DNA from: Oenococcus kitaharae
GTDB lineage: Bacteria; Bacillota; Bacilli; Lactobacillales; Lactobacillaceae
DNA length: 64,000 nt
Reading direction: 5' to 3'
Assembly: GCF_025758695.1 (NCBI RefSeq)
Contig: NZ_JANJQP010000003.1
Span: 124,001-188,000, forward strand
Part shown: positions 46,678 to 60,958 of the stretch, one piece after another
Position numbering within the stretch: position 1 is the stretch's first letter
Layout of the letters: every line of letters begins with the position of its first letter
Notes under the pieces: model-generated
What the model saw: the letters and a program-made list of their open reading frames with translations, nothing else
Told to the model about the DNA's origin: nothing
The model's database searches: none
Position numbers and translations under genes: made by a program

Positions 46678-47082
46678 CTACCTCACTACGTGTATACCAT
46701 AGAATTTATGTGTTTTGTAATTGAAAGATAACTCTACATATTTATAGTTTACTTGAGAAACATTATAACCAATTGCACCAATAATAAAACTTAGAGCAGG
46801 TGCGGCCTCACCTGATGCAAGCCCAACAATTGTGCCACCGATATAAAATAGTGCATCCACTTGGCTTTTAGTGATTCTAATAGAAACGTAACCAGATGTT
46901 TTTTCTAGAACTTTGCCTACCGCGGCTCCTTGCCCAACATTCGGGCTCATATAAGGCTGATTATAAGTTATGGCTATGTTGCTATTAATCGGACTAGCAG
47001 TGTCCGCAAAGGCTGCTAGTGGCGTGACTGCTGTCGACAGTGTTACTGCAACCAAGGCTGAAGCTAGAATTTTCTTCTTCGT
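46678..47082 (-). CDS. Secreted bacteriocin-like peptide with non-standard start (ACG)
   Basis: 134 aa if read from ACG 47082. The N-terminus [M]KKKILASALVAVTLS... is an ideal Sec signal peptide, with cleavage expected after PLAAFA. The mature part is about 108 aa, with a Gly/Ala-rich hydrophobic centre (FYIGGTIVGLASGEAAP, FIIGAIGY) and a Tyr/Lys-rich end (YKYVELSFNYKTHKFYG). The ACG stands where ATG is expected, 11 nt after AAGGGAG, with a stop codon just upstream in frame. An in-frame TTG at 47055 would cut off half the signal and has no SD. No named bacteriocin family is recognised. Confidence 0.6.
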   Translation of the reverse strand, partial: TKKKILASALVAVTLSTAVTPLAAFADTASPINSNIAITYNQPYMSPNVGQGAAVGKVLEKTSGYVSIRITKSQVDALFYIGGTIVGLASGEAAPALSFIIGAIGYNVSQVNYKYVELSFNYKTHKFYGIHVVR

Positions 47083-47204: not shown

Positions 47205-48086
47205 TCATTTGTTAGAGCTTAAGTATTTTTGAAGATAATCTTCATAGGAAGAAGCTAGGCGATCAGCGCCTAAGTCACGAAGCTGTTGGATCAAAATGCG
47301 ATTCTTGTCACGACCTTTTTCGATGTCTAGCTCAAATAAGTTTTCTAGAAATTGGACTTTGAAACGTACAAGCAGCAGAGGCTCATCTTTACCTAATAGG
47401 TGTTTGACCTTAGCGAGCATTGCTTTCGCCTCTTTTTGTTGGTTTTTTCTGAATAAAAGGTCAACAATATTAGTCAAAGTAGTCAAAATATTGCTATGTA
47501 AAGGGCCTACCTGATCCTTATAAACGAGTTCTTTTGCGACCACTTCTATCATTTTAGTGGAAGCCAGGGGTGCTGTATTATTAAAAACTGATAAATTGAA
47601 GGCATCCCAATTTTGAAGCTGCATAAAATGGTCTTCTAATTGCTCAACGATTGTCTCTTTAAGATGGAACCGCCCTTCTGATTCTTTAATTAATGCAGCA
47701 AGCGTTGTTAATTCGATCAGATTGAGCACATTACCATCGTGTCCAAAATCTTCTTGCAACTGCTTGGCGTTAGTTTCTATCGTACTTAAATCGTTAGCCT
47801 CGTAATCACGTCTGACTTCTCTTAGAAATTGCCCATACCGACCCCTGAGACTTAAATCAATTTCCTTTGTCGAAGAAACTTGTTCGTAAAAGGAATCTAA
47901 ATCTACATTCATCCTTTTTAAGAGCCGGGCTAAATCCAAAAAGGTAAGATGATTTTTGCCCACTTCAAATTTGTTTAACGAGGAATAAGAGATGATTCCT
48001 TGAGCTAGTTCCTGTCCTGAAATGTGATTGTCTTTTCTAATTTCTCTGAACAGCTTGCCGGCTTTTTTAAAATCTTCCTCGTACAT
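47205..48086 (-). CDS. Rgg/GadR/MutR-family transcriptional regulator (copy 1)
   Basis: 293-aa quorum-sensing type regulator. The N-terminal XRE HTH (LFREIRKDNHISGQELAQGIISYSSLNKFEVGKNHLTF, about residues 12-50) is followed by helical TPR-like repeats that bind short hydrophobic peptides in characterised relatives. It lacks an SD; AT-rich -10-like bases lie 5-8 nt before the ATG. A hydrophobic 42-aa ORF starts 56 bp away in the opposite direction. Downstream lies promoter block B, the probable target. Confidence 0.9.
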   Translation of the reverse strand: MYEEDFKKAGKLFREIRKDNHISGQELAQGIISYSSLNKFEVGKNHLTFLDLARLLKRMNVDLDSFYEQVSSTKEIDLSLRGRYGQFLREVRRDYEANDLSTIETNAKQLQEDFGHDGNVLNLIELTTLAALIKESEGRFHLKETIVEQLEDHFMQLQNWDAFNLSVFNNTAPLASTKMIEVVAKELVYKDQVGPLHSNILTTLTNIVDLLFRKNQQKEAKAMLAKVKHLLGKDEPLLLVRFKVQFLENLFELDIEKGRDKNRILIQQLRDLGADRLASSYEDYLQKYLSSNK

Positions 48087-48142
48087 TTGGAATTATTATG
48101 ACATATATCTGATAGTATGGTAAACAAAAAAGGGCTAATATC

Positions 48143-48477: not shown

Positions 48478-48771
48478 ATGAAAAAAGATAAGGGTTTGAG
48501 TAATGAAGACCACATCCTGCAGGAAATCAATCTGATTTTAACAACCGATATTCGTGATGACGAACGATCACTTTTGATTGATGGTCAGCATGCCTTGGAA
48601 AAGAAACAGTATTTTCCCAGAATTGTCAGTAGGCTGCAAGGTGGCCTGACACCTCTGGCTGTTAGCCGAAAAATGTCAGAGAGCGTCAAGGGACTTTATC
48701 TAGAACTGATGAAATTTAGTGATAAAGGCTTTGGCGGTGGCTTATTTACCGTCTGGGGAACTTCTTTTTAA
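48478..48771 (+). CDS. Bacteriocin immunity protein (enterocin A immunity-like)
   Basis: 97-aa soluble protein, predicted four-helix bundle. The pattern DDERSLLIDGQHALEKKQYFPRIVSRL, then LTPLAVSRKMSESVKGLYLELMKF and a flexible aromatic tail (GLFTVWGTSF), fits the class IIa immunity family. Those proteins bind the mannose PTS EIIC/EIID complex with bacteriocin attached and block pore formation. SD AAAGGG. No class IIa bacteriocin (YGNGV peptide) is present in the window, so it is an orphan immunity gene. The EIIC/EIID receptor type is encoded at 11.4-13.1 kb. Confidence 0.7.
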   Translation: MKKDKGLSNEDHILQEINLILTTDIRDDERSLLIDGQHALEKKQYFPRIVSRLQGGLTPLAVSRKMSESVKGLYLELMKFSDKGFGGGLFTVWGTSF

Positions 48772-57361: not shown

Positions 57362-57447
57362 ACTAACAGTTTAGTCTGCAGGAGGCATTTGGCTCGTTAA
57401 TGGAGCGACTTCGTCTGTGTGCCGTGAGCCTGCGATTCAGATCATAG

Positions 57448-57504
57448 TTATATTCTCATTTTGAAAAAGGCCTTAATTTTAAGCATTAATTCTAAATCAC
57501 TCAT
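57448..57504 (-). CDS. 18-aa peptide ORF downstream of the second rgg operon
   Basis: MSDLELMLKIKAFFKMRI, with AAGGA 8 nt before the ATG. It has an acidic start and a basic hydrophobic end. It lies 38 bp after the four-TM gene on the same strand. It may be a bioactive or signalling micro-peptide of the Rgg locus or a chance frame. Confidence 0.3.
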   Translation of the reverse strand: MSDLELMLKIKAFFKMRI

Positions 57505-57542
57505 TTCTGTGATTCCTTCATTGATACAAATAGACTGGTTCT

Positions 57543-57887
57543 TTATCTCTTGCGATAGTTGACGAGATCATAGCCAGCTTGTATCAGCAAGGCGATCAAA
57601 GAGACAAGGACAATGGCTAAAAAGTAATGAGGAGAGTGAGTGTTCACATGGAGTAGCAAACTAAAAATCAGGACATTCAATAACCAAGAGAAGGCAAAAA
57701 GTAAATCATGCTCAAGCTGCTGGGCAAGACCAGCCTGGATAATCGGAAAAGCGATATTAACCGTTAACACCGTGGCCGCACAACCCAGCTGCCAAAGGAA
57801 CCAGAGCAGGTCGTTATGAATGAATAATGCCAAAAGAGCTATAAAAACGATGTAAACAATTAGAACTTGATTCCGTCGATTGTTCAT
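57543..57887 (-). CDS. Four-TM membrane protein next to rgg copy 2
   Basis: 114 aa from ATG 57887 (MNNRRNQVLIVYIVF) with four hydrophobic helices and a basic tail (NYRKR). The start is uncertain. A strong GGGAGG lies about 22 nt upstream without an ATG at normal spacing, while only TAGG touches the chosen ATG; the frame stays open back to the rgg stop. Its resemblance in topology and in the IAFPI(I/L) segment to the protein at 45466-45846 suggests the same role at both Rgg loci. Confidence 0.55.
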   Translation of the reverse strand: MNNRRNQVLIVYIVFIALLALFIHNDLLWFLWQLGCAATVLTVNIAFPIIQAGLAQQLEHDLLFAFSWLLNVLIFSLLLHVNTHSPHYFLAIVLVSLIALLIQAGYDLVNYRKR

Positions 57888-58024
57888 CCTATTGGACGTA
57901 TTATTTTTCCTCCCAGTTAAAAATTGAATTAATCGTAACTCATTATTTTTCTTTTGGAAGAAAGCTATCTTATAGTCGTTATGTTCACCAAATTGAAAGT
58001 TTTTAACGCAAATACTACGCAATT

Positions 58025-58873
58025 CTAAGTATTCGGAAAGGAATGTTTGGTCATATAGACCTCAAAAGTAGAAGCCAAACTGTTTGAACCCAGAGATCTG
58101 AGCGACCCATCAATTAATTGCTGGTTCCTAACACGAGCTGTCGATGCATCTAAAGTTAAGAGATTCTTCATGAAGAGGAACTTAAAACGCGTAACTAGAT
58201 CGTTTTGATTCAAGCGTAAGTTTTCAACTTGCTTCACGATTTCTTTAGCCAGTTGATACTCCTGTCTCTGGTACATTAAATCAGCAACATTGATGAGCGC
58301 CAGCGCTGATACGCTTTGCGAATAAATTAATTCTTTAGTAATCGTTTTAACCATTTGAGAAGTTAGCAAAAAGGAACAATTGTTGAAAATGGCAACTTCT
58401 AATTTCCCCCAATAGTTAACTTTTAACAGGTATTCAGTGATTCTTTGAGTAATCAGTGGATTTGTTTCATAACTTTGGTCAACACTTTTGGTTAAAGAAA
58501 TTGCTGTCGCAGCCTGGATTAAACTTTGAAAATTCTGATCCTTTTCGTAAACGGCACACAATTCTTGACTCGCTTTTTTAAGAGTTGGCAGATCATTTTC
58601 CTGATAAATGCTTTCAAAACCATCGAGAAATTTTCTGTAGGACGCCGATGCAGAGCTTGTTTGCACTTGATTGTAAAAATCGTCAAGACTATAATCCATT
58701 TTCTGCAACAAAGGAGCCAAATTAAAAAAAGAGAGCTGAATCGTTCCGGCTTCGAATTTGTTAATCGTTGACGGAGAAAGAATCCCTGATGATAGTTGAG
58801 CAACGCTGAATCCTCGGTTGTTTCTAATTTTATGAAATAATTGACCAGCGTTTGTTTTTAATAATCTATCCAT
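58025..58873 (-). CDS. Rgg/GadR/MutR-family transcriptional regulator (copy 2)
   Basis: 282 aa, paralogous to copy 1. XRE HTH at the N-terminus (FHKIRNNRGFSVAQLSSGILSPSTINKFEAG), then helical repeats with the same landmarks (NYWGKLEVAIFNN versus QNWDAFNLSVFNN; KELIYSQSVSAL versus KELVYKDQVGPL). It lacks an SD; TAATAA/AATAAT lie 7-9 nt before the ATG. A 19-aa hydrophobic ORF starts 58 bp away on the opposite strand. Likely targets are the flanking membrane-protein, ABC and MFS genes. Confidence 0.9.
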   Translation of the reverse strand: MDRLLKTNAGQLFHKIRNNRGFSVAQLSSGILSPSTINKFEAGTIQLSFFNLAPLLQKMDYSLDDFYNQVQTSSASASYRKFLDGFESIYQENDLPTLKKASQELCAVYEKDQNFQSLIQAATAISLTKSVDQSYETNPLITQRITEYLLKVNYWGKLEVAIFNNCSFLLTSQMVKTITKELIYSQSVSALALINVADLMYQRQEYQLAKEIVKQVENLRLNQNDLVTRFKFLFMKNLLTLDASTARVRNQQLIDGSLRSLGSNSLASTFEVYMTKHSFPNT

Positions 58874-58931
58874 TTGCAGGTTATTATTACATAATCAGAA
58901 TTAAAAAGAAAAGGACCTCTTAAAAGCAGGA

Positions 58932-58991
58932 ATGAAGACATCATTACCTTTACTGGTGTTGGAATCAGTTATTATCAATTTTTTTGCATAA
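58932..58991 (+). CDS. Candidate SHP-type pheromone precursor (copy 2)
   Basis: MKTSLPLLVLESVIINFFA, 19 aa, divergent from rgg copy 2. Length, basic start, leucine-rich core and a Glu followed by aliphatic residues (ESVIINFF) fit SHP precursors (about 20-23 aa with Asp or Glu before a hydrophobic C-terminus). The terminal GG of many SHPs is absent. AGGA lies almost directly before the ATG, too close for a strong SD. Confidence 0.5.
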   Translation: MKTSLPLLVLESVIINFFA

Positions 58992-59066
58992 TTATGAAAC
59001 GCTGTGTATATCAACGAGTACAATAAGGCCATGATTAACTGACAACAACTTAACTGAGAAGGTCTC

Positions 59067-59240
59067 ATGATTTTATCTTCATCGTGTTTGGAACATGCAA
59101 ACACAAGAGATTTTTCAGAAGATGAGTTCTCAAGTGTAGTTGAGGTGTTGTTACATAAGTTAATAGATCTATCGTTTCATTTACATAAATTTATTTTTTC
59201 TAAGCGGACCTTTTCTATCCTGACAGACTCATTTTTTTAA
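59067..59240 (+). CDS. 57-aa ORF upstream of the ABC exporter
   Basis: Starts MILSSSCLEHANTRDFSEDEF with GAAGGT 7-10 nt upstream. The N-terminal part is acidic and polar; the C-terminal half is His/Phe/Leu-rich with a basic patch (HLHKFIFSKRTF) and ends SILTDSFF. An acidic leader-like half followed by a distinct C-terminal half, directly in front of an ABC exporter and beside an Rgg gene, is reminiscent of RiPP or bacteriocin precursors. There is no modification enzyme nearby and no double-Gly site. Confidence 0.4.
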   Translation: MILSSSCLEHANTRDFSEDEFSSVVEVLLHKLIDLSFHLHKFIFSKRTFSILTDSFF

Positions 59241-59296
59241 ACAGTTGCGGCTCTTCATAAATATAGTCAATCAAGAAAAGAAAGTGTGGTTTATCG

Positions 59297-60958
59297 GTGC
59301 CTTTAGCTAAATATATTCGTCGAGCTTGGAAAGAAAATTTAATCGTGTTGTTTTGGGTCGTGATCGGGTCATCCTGTACGACTTTGTATGGCCTCAGTAC
59401 TGCTAATATTTTAACCAGCGCTGTTGCCTTCAAATTTCGTGCTGTCATCATCTGGGTCGTGGTCCTGTTATTGACCAGCGTGATTTGGTCGCTGCAAATT
59501 TATTTTGAAGCGGTGACCTTAACTAAGTCGATCCAAAAAATGGATACCTTAATTCGTCAAGATATTACGAGTTCCTTATTGAACAGGTCTGTGAGTGCTT
59601 TTCATGAGAAGAGCAGCTCCGTCTACGTCTCTTGGCTGACAAATGATATTTCAACCATTAATGAATTCGGTTTTGGTAATCTGGAAATGGCCCTGAGCCA
59701 ATTTTTAACGATCCTCATGAGTATCGGTGCCATGCTGAGTTTTCATTATTCGATGATTATCACAATTATCGTTTTATCTGCTTTGATGTTGTTAGCTCCG
59801 AAGATTTTTACAGCTAAAATGAATCAGGCATCTTTAAAGGCCACACAAGCAGCTGAAAGAGCGACGAGCAAAATGTCTGATTTTTTGTTGGGCTTTGATG
59901 AATTAGTCATGATTAATCGTCCGCACCTTATCCATCGTGAAATCACAAAAGCTTCGCAGGATTTGGCCGATAAAAGAGTGAAATTTGCTAAAGCCAGTGC
60001 AACCATGTCTGCCAGCTCGAATTTCACGAGTCTGATTAGTCAAGTGATTTTAGTGGCCCAAGCTGCGCTGCTGTTTTTTATGCATCTCGTCTCAGCTGGT
60101 GCGATTAGCGGTGCCCGTTACTTTTCAGCGACGATTTTTGCTAGTCTCACTGGTATGATTGCTAACTTGGTTGAGGTGGGGACTGTGAAACCCGTGTTTG
60201 CTAAATATGGACAATTGCCTGAGATAAAAGAAGAACCAAGTAGTGTTCGCATGACGCCAACGGCCAATTTGAGCAACGCTGTTGATAGTGATGCTGCGAT
60301 TCAGTTAACGAATTTGTCTTTTAGCTATCCGAATAAAGAATCAGATATTCTTCACGGGCTGACGCTAAGCTTTCAAAAAGCAAAAAAATATGCGCTGGTC
60401 GGTGAATCCGGTAGTGGGAAAAGTACGTTGCTGGATTTGATTGCCGGCAAACTTGATCATTACCGTGGTGTGATTGCGGTCAATGGGCAAGATTTGCAAA
60501 ACATGACGCCAGCAGATCTGCGTAAACAACTGGTTTATTTAAATCAGAAACCACATATTTTTAATGAGTCGCTGCTTTTTAATCTCACTTTAGGCGAGCC
60601 AATTAACAAGAGCAGCCTGCAAAATGTACTTTTCAAAAGCGGCTTGATCAGCTTGATTGATTCCTTACCAGAAGGTTTGGATACGATCATTAGTGAAAAC
60701 GGCCGCAACTTATCCGGCGGGCAGCAGCAGCGGATTGCCATTGCTCGAGGCCTGATTGAGCAGGGCAGCATTTGGCTTGTCGATGAAGCAACTTCATCTT
60801 TGGACCGTGAGTCAGCCATTCAGATTGAACAGACTTTATTTAAGATCCAGGATATTACTTTAATCATCGTGACGCATCAGTTACACGATGCATCATCACG
60901 TTTGTTGGATCAAATTATTTATCTGAAAGATGTGAATCAGCCGGTCGATGCCGGTTAA
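59297..60958 (+). CDS. ABC exporter, fused permease and ATPase (half transporter)
   Basis: 553 aa. About six membrane helices in the first 290 residues, then the ATPase: Walker A GESGSGKSTLLDLIAG (about 375), signature LSGGQQQRIAIARG, Walker B SIWLVDEATSSLD and VTHQ. GTG start with poor SD and a stop codon 11 codons upstream in frame. It follows the 57-aa ORF by 56 bp. Peptide export under Rgg control is the likely role by context. Its last 44 bp overlap, tail-to-tail, the hydrolase gene. Confidence 0.87.
   Translation: MPLAKYIRRAWKENLIVLFWVVIGSSCTTLYGLSTANILTSAVAFKFRAVIIWVVVLLLTSVIWSLQIYFEAVTLTKSIQKMDTLIRQDITSSLLNRSVSAFHEKSSSVYVSWLTNDISTINEFGFGNLEMALSQFLTILMSIGAMLSFHYSMIITIIVLSALMLLAPKIFTAKMNQASLKATQAAERATSKMSDFLLGFDELVMINRPHLIHREITKASQDLADKRVKFAKASATMSASSNFTSLISQVILVAQAALLFFMHLVSAGAISGARYFSATIFASLTGMIANLVEVGTVKPVFAKYGQLPEIKEEPSSVRMTPTANLSNAVDSDAAIQLTNLSFSYPNKESDILHGLTLSFQKAKKYALVGESGSGKSTLLDLIAGKLDHYRGVIAVNGQDLQNMTPADLRKQLVYLNQKPHIFNESLLFNLTLGEPINKSSLQNVLFKSGLISLIDSLPEGLDTIISENGRNLSGGQQQRIAIARGLIEQGSIWLVDEATSSLDRESAIQIEQTLFKIQDITLIIVTHQLHDASSRLLDQIIYLKDVNQPVDAG

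Follow-up and report, generated by a model that had tools for sequence, protein, structure and literature searches.

A promoter-like element beside rgg start codons and tailed SHP-like precursors in Oenococcus

Two rgg genes of Oenococcus kitaharae share a short block of DNA directly ahead of their start codons, and this block is probably an extended -10 promoter of the rgg genes themselves, read into a leaderless mRNA. Its presence at both loci had been put forward as an argument for two paralogous peptide-signalling circuits; the same element stands at Rgg paralogs that have no recognizable peptide gene. On the account we favour, with a confidence somewhat above even, the two loci share rgg's own leaderless promoter, Rgg2 would most likely control the genes that flank it (a hydrophobic protein behind and an ABC exporter in front), the 19-aa open reading frame (ORF) divergent from rgg2 would be an accidental frame, and Rgg2 would be an orphan that answers the peptide of a sister locus or another signal. 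Leaderless transcription, the targets of Rgg2 and its orphan status we infer from sequence. Across the genus, six longer precursors beside rgg genes, that of rgg1 among them, resemble short hydrophobic peptides (SHPs) that carry an added tail.

Results

Rgg2 belongs to a set of Rgg paralogs

The window, that is, the whole 64,000-nt stretch of DNA analysed (G000:C3:124001-188000), is part of a 1.75-Mb genome in 7 contigs, whose nearest relative genome (G005) is 98.6% identical to it across 16.9 kb. As the initial annotation had proposed, both regulators (Table 1) are Rgg paralogs, each joining an N-terminal HTH to a C-terminal Rgg_C domain over the Pfam cut-offs. Rgg2 scores 107.6 bits against Rgg_C (cut-off 27) and 25.9 against HTH_3 (cut-off 23), Rgg1 scores 67.9 and 28.9 bits, and both pass the TIGR01716 cut-off of 36.9 bits, Rgg2 with 56. 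The Rgg2 sequence also matches nine distinct PDB sequences, the best being 4yv6 (E 3.3e-13), and an Rgg protein search of its own genome returned eight matches with E<=0.001, Rgg2 among them. Rgg2 is a genuine Rgg regulator and a member of a set of about eight copies in its own Oenococcus genome. Plasmid records contained only distant Rgg proteins (six records, identity <=26.8%), and Rgg2 found no relative in the genome-contig collection, from which near records may be missing.

Several paralogs have features of their own. K_58 (locus L058, about 2080-2111, on G000:C2) has an apparent frameshift near its start, possibly a sequencing error; the G005 copy (L039) is open from the ATG. At L047 (2371-3232, genome G006) a broken Rgg paralog with an interrupted frame has kept the promoter element described below and adjoins a gene for a secreted protein. 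Two DUF1430-type proteins, of which one passes the Pfam cut-off and the other falls below it, are encoded near a relative of the L047 Rgg in O. oeni (L049); the gene adjoining the L049 rgg was suspected of encoding a lactococcin-972, an identity without Pfam support that we do not retain.

Table 1. Features of the rgg1 and rgg2 loci and precursor genes of related loci. Positions are those of the window.
Feature	Position	Strand	Remarks
Rgg2, 282-aa Rgg-type regulator	58025..58873	-	Rgg_C, HTH_3, TIGR01716
rgg2 element TATGTAATAAT, probable extended -10 of leaderless mRNA or overlapping Rgg operator	58883..58893	-	ends 9 nt before rgg2 ATG
19-aa ORF MKTSLPLLVLESVIINFFA, candidate SHP-like precursor	58932..58991, stop included	+	ATG 58 bp from rgg2 ATG, divergent
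57-aa ORF between 19-aa ORF and ABC exporter	59067..59240	+	AAGG 4 nt before ATG
ABC exporter with fused membrane and ATPase domains	59297..60958	+	ABC_tran 102.6, ABC_membrane 51.2 bits
Hydrophobic protein downstream of rgg2	57543..58022	-	without family
Rgg1, 293-aa Rgg-type regulator	47205..48086	-	Rgg_C, HTH_3
rgg1 element TATGTCATAAT, same element as at rgg2	48095..48105	-	8 nt before rgg1 ATG
rgg1 precursor MKKLIRNFQLLFLTILGVYIIIDPDGQGSEYIKNAFNILIIK, 42 aa	48143..48271	+	AAGG 9 nt before ATG; start 56 bp from rgg1, divergent
Divergent precursors			rgg1 42 aa, K_59 40, K_60a 36, K_60b 40, G6_45 42
Precursor MKKTIAIILVIFDVVIIIQPHDITKLNTTNHNYSALQIQDQNNIQE at G005 locus L041, 46 aa		same as rgg	AAGGAG 5 nt before ATG

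The shared DNA lies next to the rgg start codons

The two intergenic regions are related, with CATTTG and TTATTAT-ACATA followed by ATC in both, and alignment of 48087-48142 with 58874-58931 shows more likeness than background (local P 0.0026, global P 0.001; 5,000 first-order Markov shuffles each), which bears out the similarity previously noted. This likeness is located in the 24 bp adjoining the rgg start (P 0.0033) and not in the remainder (P 0.27; 3,000 shuffles each). On the rgg strand the shared block reads TATGTNATAAT, lies 8-9 nt ahead of both ATGs and comes without a Shine-Dalgarno sequence. The rgg1 copy holds CATAAT with TG, plus a TTTACC/TTACCA box resembling a -35, and the pattern TATGTNATAAT-N8-ATG occurs a single time in the genome, at rgg1.

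The element recurs across a clade of Rgg paralogs that has moderate tree support (84/88). We compared 12 rows: the Rgg tree contributed 11 of its 12 rows for this clade, and the broken copy G6_47, which is not in the tree, was added; K_58, whose start is misassigned, was excluded, as were K_61 and G5_42, which fall outside the clade. Ten of the 12 rows, among which near-identical G000 and G005 loci are counted twice, combine TG with at least 5/6 letters of TATAAT, the end of the hexamer lying 7-9 nt ahead of the ATG. The exceptions are K_59 (5/6, no TG) and G3_52 (4/6, with TG). Among control genes the same combination, ending 5-10 nt before the start, is found in 4 of 242, and at least 5/6 letters with or without TG in 24 of 242. 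A Shine-Dalgarno match of at least 4 nt is missing in 11 of the 12 rows and present in 125 of 242 controls, a rough count that, with control starts taken as the first ATG of the frame, is probably too low.

With the extended -10 so placed, transcription would begin on the A of the rgg ATG or immediately beside it, and Rgg may itself bind at this element too. A promoter scan requiring a -35 box picks up the element of rgg1 but not that of rgg2, which counts against the promoter reading. Alternatively, the imperfect inverted repeat TTAT-NAC-ATAA could serve chiefly as an Rgg operator, its -10 likeness being secondary, with each Rgg repressing its own gene and regulating the divergent promoter; we consider this somewhat unlikely, and it would fit either view of the 19-aa ORF. 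An imperfect dyad can be seen by eye in many copies, and the position between divergent genes recalls group I and II Rgg loci as described in PMC13361665. However, the constant spacing to the ATG (7-9 nt), the TG and the AAT conserved at the end suit a -10 better, and the RopB sites described in PMC10518010 are palindromes of 25-26 bp upstream of the peptide promoter.

The element also stands upstream of G6_43, G2_49, G5_39, G2_50 and G6_44, where the peptide model described below finds nothing. It is therefore no evidence for a peptide at rgg2 or for two circuits, and the inference that the initial annotation drew from it is not supported.

Tailed precursors accompany several Oenococcus rgg genes

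In the genome and its same-genus relatives we found six precursors of 36-46 aa, each starting <=300 nt from an rgg start (Table 1). All six have a basic start, a hydrophobic stretch, a core of the form [GD]-[VI]-x-I-[IV]-[IV] and then a tail of 18-28 residues, and each is preceded by a Shine-Dalgarno match of 4-6 nt. The precursor at rgg1 is one of them and is very probably a real source of signal for Rgg1. The idea that the same arrangement is repeated at rgg2 stands as far as both genes have a divergent small ORF; the 42-aa peptide of rgg1 is, however, of another kind than the 19-aa ORF.

A five-row model of the family, run on 13 genomes, gave nine matches below 1e-4, every one adjoining an Rgg gene; eight are rows of the model or near-identical copies, and the ninth, from outside the model, is the L041 precursor (E 1.7e-5). 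At L041 a divergent 36-aa ORF (MIISVLIIINLSFG...) had been picked by its position and proved spurious, being antisense to the likely precursor MKKTIAIILVIFDVVIIIQPHDITKLNTTNHNYSALQIQDQNNIQE; choosing ORFs by place and hydrophobicity thus easily misleads. The wrong L041 row contaminated model A5, as it did alignment A1 and the first script model. Across 301 genomes of the family, the matches of A5 that we accept lie in Oenococcus only, in three of the five genomes with a match; a G020 match within a 743-aa frame and a G153 match with an internal stop were taken as chance from the match table only. When the family model is run on the short ORFs of the window that begin with ATG, it finds the rgg1 precursor only, a member by construction, and none near rgg2.

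Searching 395 genomes of the order with the six-row model gave four matches outside the genus with E<=0.001. G451 and G520, which belong to a single genus of another family, supply two of them, ORFs of 22 and 23 aa (MKKYYQIFLLLFDIIIIIGLYQ and a near copy). These ORFs (loci L119 and L121; MKKYYQIFLLL(L)FDIIIIIGLYQ) lie 35 nt from, and divergent to, a 291-aa Rgg_C protein (132.5 bits, Pfam having been run on L119 only), and they have the appearance of ordinary group I SHPs. We take the remaining two matches as chance: that in G329 has an internal stop, and that in G580 is the beginning of a 313-aa protein. The family model is short and has few rows, so true SHPs can escape it, and the searches set no limit to how widely the family may be spread. 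Separately, locus L013, from another family of the order, has a 29-aa hydrophobic ORF (MKKFVRNHFVDIVHILGILIVVSVPLVNL) divergent from and 61 nt away from an Rgg-type gene that starts near 1474 on the minus strand, a possible SHP.

The 19-aa ORF beside rgg2

The 19-aa ORF is divergent from rgg2 and 58 bp from its start, just as first described, so that, as in group II systems, a small divergent frame lies near rgg. It has Lys2, a central Glu11 and a hydrophobic end, and its final residue is Ala and not Gly. We consider it a possible signal peptide, a moderate candidate, and more likely an accidental frame, because the convincing signals of the genus are the 36-46-aa precursors with Shine-Dalgarno sequence, core and tail. 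We also weighed whether it encodes a true pheromone, a group II-like SHP that is the genuine signal precursor of Rgg2. The peptide would be exported by an EcsAB/PptAB-type transporter, cut before Glu11 by an RseP/Eep-type protease to give ESVIINFFA, brought back into the cell by an Opp permease to bind Rgg2, which would then switch on the divergent operon with the ABC exporter. This is a tentative proposition, and we regard it as doubtful without dismissing it.

Part of the evidence favours such a pheromone. The distance fits those between peptide and rgg at the sister loci (48, 56, 56, 63 and 83 bp); Lys2, the central Glu and the hydrophobic end agree with the description of SHPs in PMC12445099; and the best match among eight known mature SHPs is ESIIVIAVG. 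An ORF equally basic and hydrophobic arises rarely in shuffled sequence (P 0.008; 3,000 shuffles). The genome encodes an RseP-type protein (236 bits), an EcsB-type protein and five SBP_bac_5 (OppA-type) proteins, which speaks to presence and not to use, and a weak promoter-like site (TTAATA-18-TATTAT at 58858-58887; four sites found, 2.6 expected) lies upstream on the strand of the ORF.

Set against this, no match of at least 4 nt to AAGGAGGTGA occurs at 3-13 nt spacing before the ORF, whereas all six family precursors have a Shine-Dalgarno sequence; this is a weaker argument than it appears, because nothing better than GTGA precedes the SHP-like ORFs of L119 and L121. The ORF has only 19 aa and lacks the tail. 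Against the clean six-row model it reaches E 4.6 and rank 14 among 648 short ORFs of the window, no family match (with one wrong row the model had given E 1.9 and rank 5, so the clean model ranks the ORF worse), and in pairwise scores to the six precursors 98 of the 648 lie above it and 27 tie. Even against the mature SHPs, eight of the 648 outscore it and two tie. The Rgg relatives of highest identity have no comparable ORF: none is found at G6_43, and that of 17 aa at G2_49 scores 0.89 against 2.43. At G6_44 a 22-aa ORF was rejected as chance, its 85%-identical sister G2_50 being without it. The spurious ORF at L041, likewise picked by position, also counsels caution.

How often an SHP look arises by chance depends on the control. 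A threshold of 2.4 is reached by six of 91 real control upstream regions, three of which adjoin Rgg-type genes, and by 11 of 28 Rgg rows, a count that includes duplicates and the chance ORF at G6_44. Chance would produce such an ORF in about 1-7% of cases. The ORF does resemble a streptococcal SHP, but it lacks a Shine-Dalgarno sequence and does not match the family. Between 57400 and 61000, the window and G005 differ at six positions, none of them inside the ORF; with so close a relative, the intact frame does not speak for the ORF.

RopB responds to a leaderless communication peptide (LCP) of 8-10 aa, and it is very improbable that Rgg2 does likewise. Lactobacillaceae are known to have LCP systems, whose candidate targets include ABC transporters (PMC10518010). 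However, when 57400-59400 was scanned for ORFs of 8-90 aa preceded by a Shine-Dalgarno sequence, a search that an LCP ORF without one would escape, no hydrophobic ORF of 8-10 aa divergent to rgg2 was found. The 19-aa ORF is itself too long for an LCP and has a leader-like start.

Flanking genes as likely targets

Judged by its position, the ABC exporter is a plausible target of Rgg2. Nine further exporter matches (E<=1e-40) are spread over G000, G003 and G005. Near another Rgg of the set, at about 1.6 to 3 kb, are one match in G000 (L058, with other genes in between) and two pieces in G005 (L039), and in each of these two genomes a relative lies at 1.6 kb; the remaining six are >10 kb from Rgg matches. 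The hydrophobic protein on the other side of rgg2 has matches in its own genome and G005 only, among eight genomes searched. Control of bacteriocin and export genes by Rgg proteins is a reasonable supposition.

Genes of related kinds lie at other rgg loci. Behind the K_60b Rgg, which has a tailed peptide of its own, is a Lactococcin_972 bacteriocin gene (80.7 bits; L060 4480-4779, plus strand, near 185000 on G000:C2). A protein of the enterocin A immunity type (48478-48771; 33.6 bits, cut-off 22.1) is encoded 0.4 kb from rgg1, beyond its peptide, and a secreted-looking protein without family (46678-47055) lies behind rgg1.

Discussion

The Oenococcus loci share several traits with known Rgg systems. 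Rgg/SHP signalling is concentrated in streptococci, according to PMC13361665, and SHPs are described in PMC12445099 as peptides of 20-26 aa with an N-terminal Lys, a hydrophobic C-terminus and often a final Gly and/or a central Asp/Glu; ESIIVIAVG is given there as a secreted SHP of S. thermophilus. As in the streptococcal groups I and II (S. pyogenes Rgg2/Rgg3-SHP, S. thermophilus Rgg1358-SHP1358), an Rgg_C regulator has a small hydrophobic precursor nearby, divergent in five of the six Oenococcus cases. The cores LDIIIIIKP, FDVVIIIQP and FGVIIVIGG are like the streptococcal DIIIIVGG, and the end of the 19-aa ORF, ESVIINFFA, is like ESIIVIAVG. Unlike streptococcal SHPs, which end after the core, the Oenococcus precursors continue into their tail, and in four of the six the acidic residue of the core is replaced by Gly. 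The 19-aa ORF departs from streptococcal SHPs in other ways, with no Shine-Dalgarno sequence and no C-terminal Gly.

Two further families of signals invite comparison. PapR/TprA-like precursors, such as the 45-aa PapR of S. thermophilus (PMC12445099), are similar in length and likewise have a basic start, a hydrophobic stretch and a polar tail, and PMC12445099 describes a peptide from the C-terminal end of PapR detected extracellularly. Their receptors are, however, PlcR/TprA proteins, whereas those of Oenococcus are Rgg_C proteins. RopB/LCP systems (PMC10518010) pair an Rgg-type receptor with a mostly divergent peptide, as in Oenococcus, and the LCP of Lysinibacillus sphaericus is described there with eight extra C-terminal residues; LCPs are mostly 8-10 aa and leaderless, whereas the Oenococcus precursors have a leader.

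The tailed precursors of Oenococcus thus resemble an SHP-like core to which a tail has been added, and would be a new form of Rgg/SHP signalling. Tailed-precursor Rgg circuits were not found in the literature searched, although supplements of RRNPP surveys may list such loci. The word Oenococcus is absent from the main texts of PMC10518010, PMC10075063 and PMC13361665, and neither Rgg nor quorum occurs in that of PMC3250461, which concerns O. kitaharae DSM 17330. Our searches returned no paper on Oenococcus kitaharae with Rgg and none on Oenococcus with RRNPP, within the same caveat about survey supplements; in the portions of the literature covered, Oenococcus with Rgg yielded single mentions of Rgg only.

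A broader picture would have Oenococcus run several parallel Rgg circuits with tailed SHP precursors, the rgg2 locus carrying a tail-less derivative that would coexist with them in one genome, and leaderless rgg promoters being common to the paralogs. We think this combination unlikely as a whole. Our preferred account keeps the leaderless promoter and treats the 19-aa frame as probably accidental, and it carries a warning: a short hydrophobic frame at the right distance, even with similar intergenic DNA, is insufficient for claiming a circuit, because the rgg promoter itself occupies that region.

The set of tailed-precursor Rgg loci in Oenococcus, one of them beside a bacteriocin gene, would extend Rgg/SHP signalling to a genus of wine bacteria. 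Maturation of such precursors could then not follow the usual trimming from the front only. If the tailed-precursor reading is true, the signal would have to be freed on both sides, or the end of the tail would itself be the signal.
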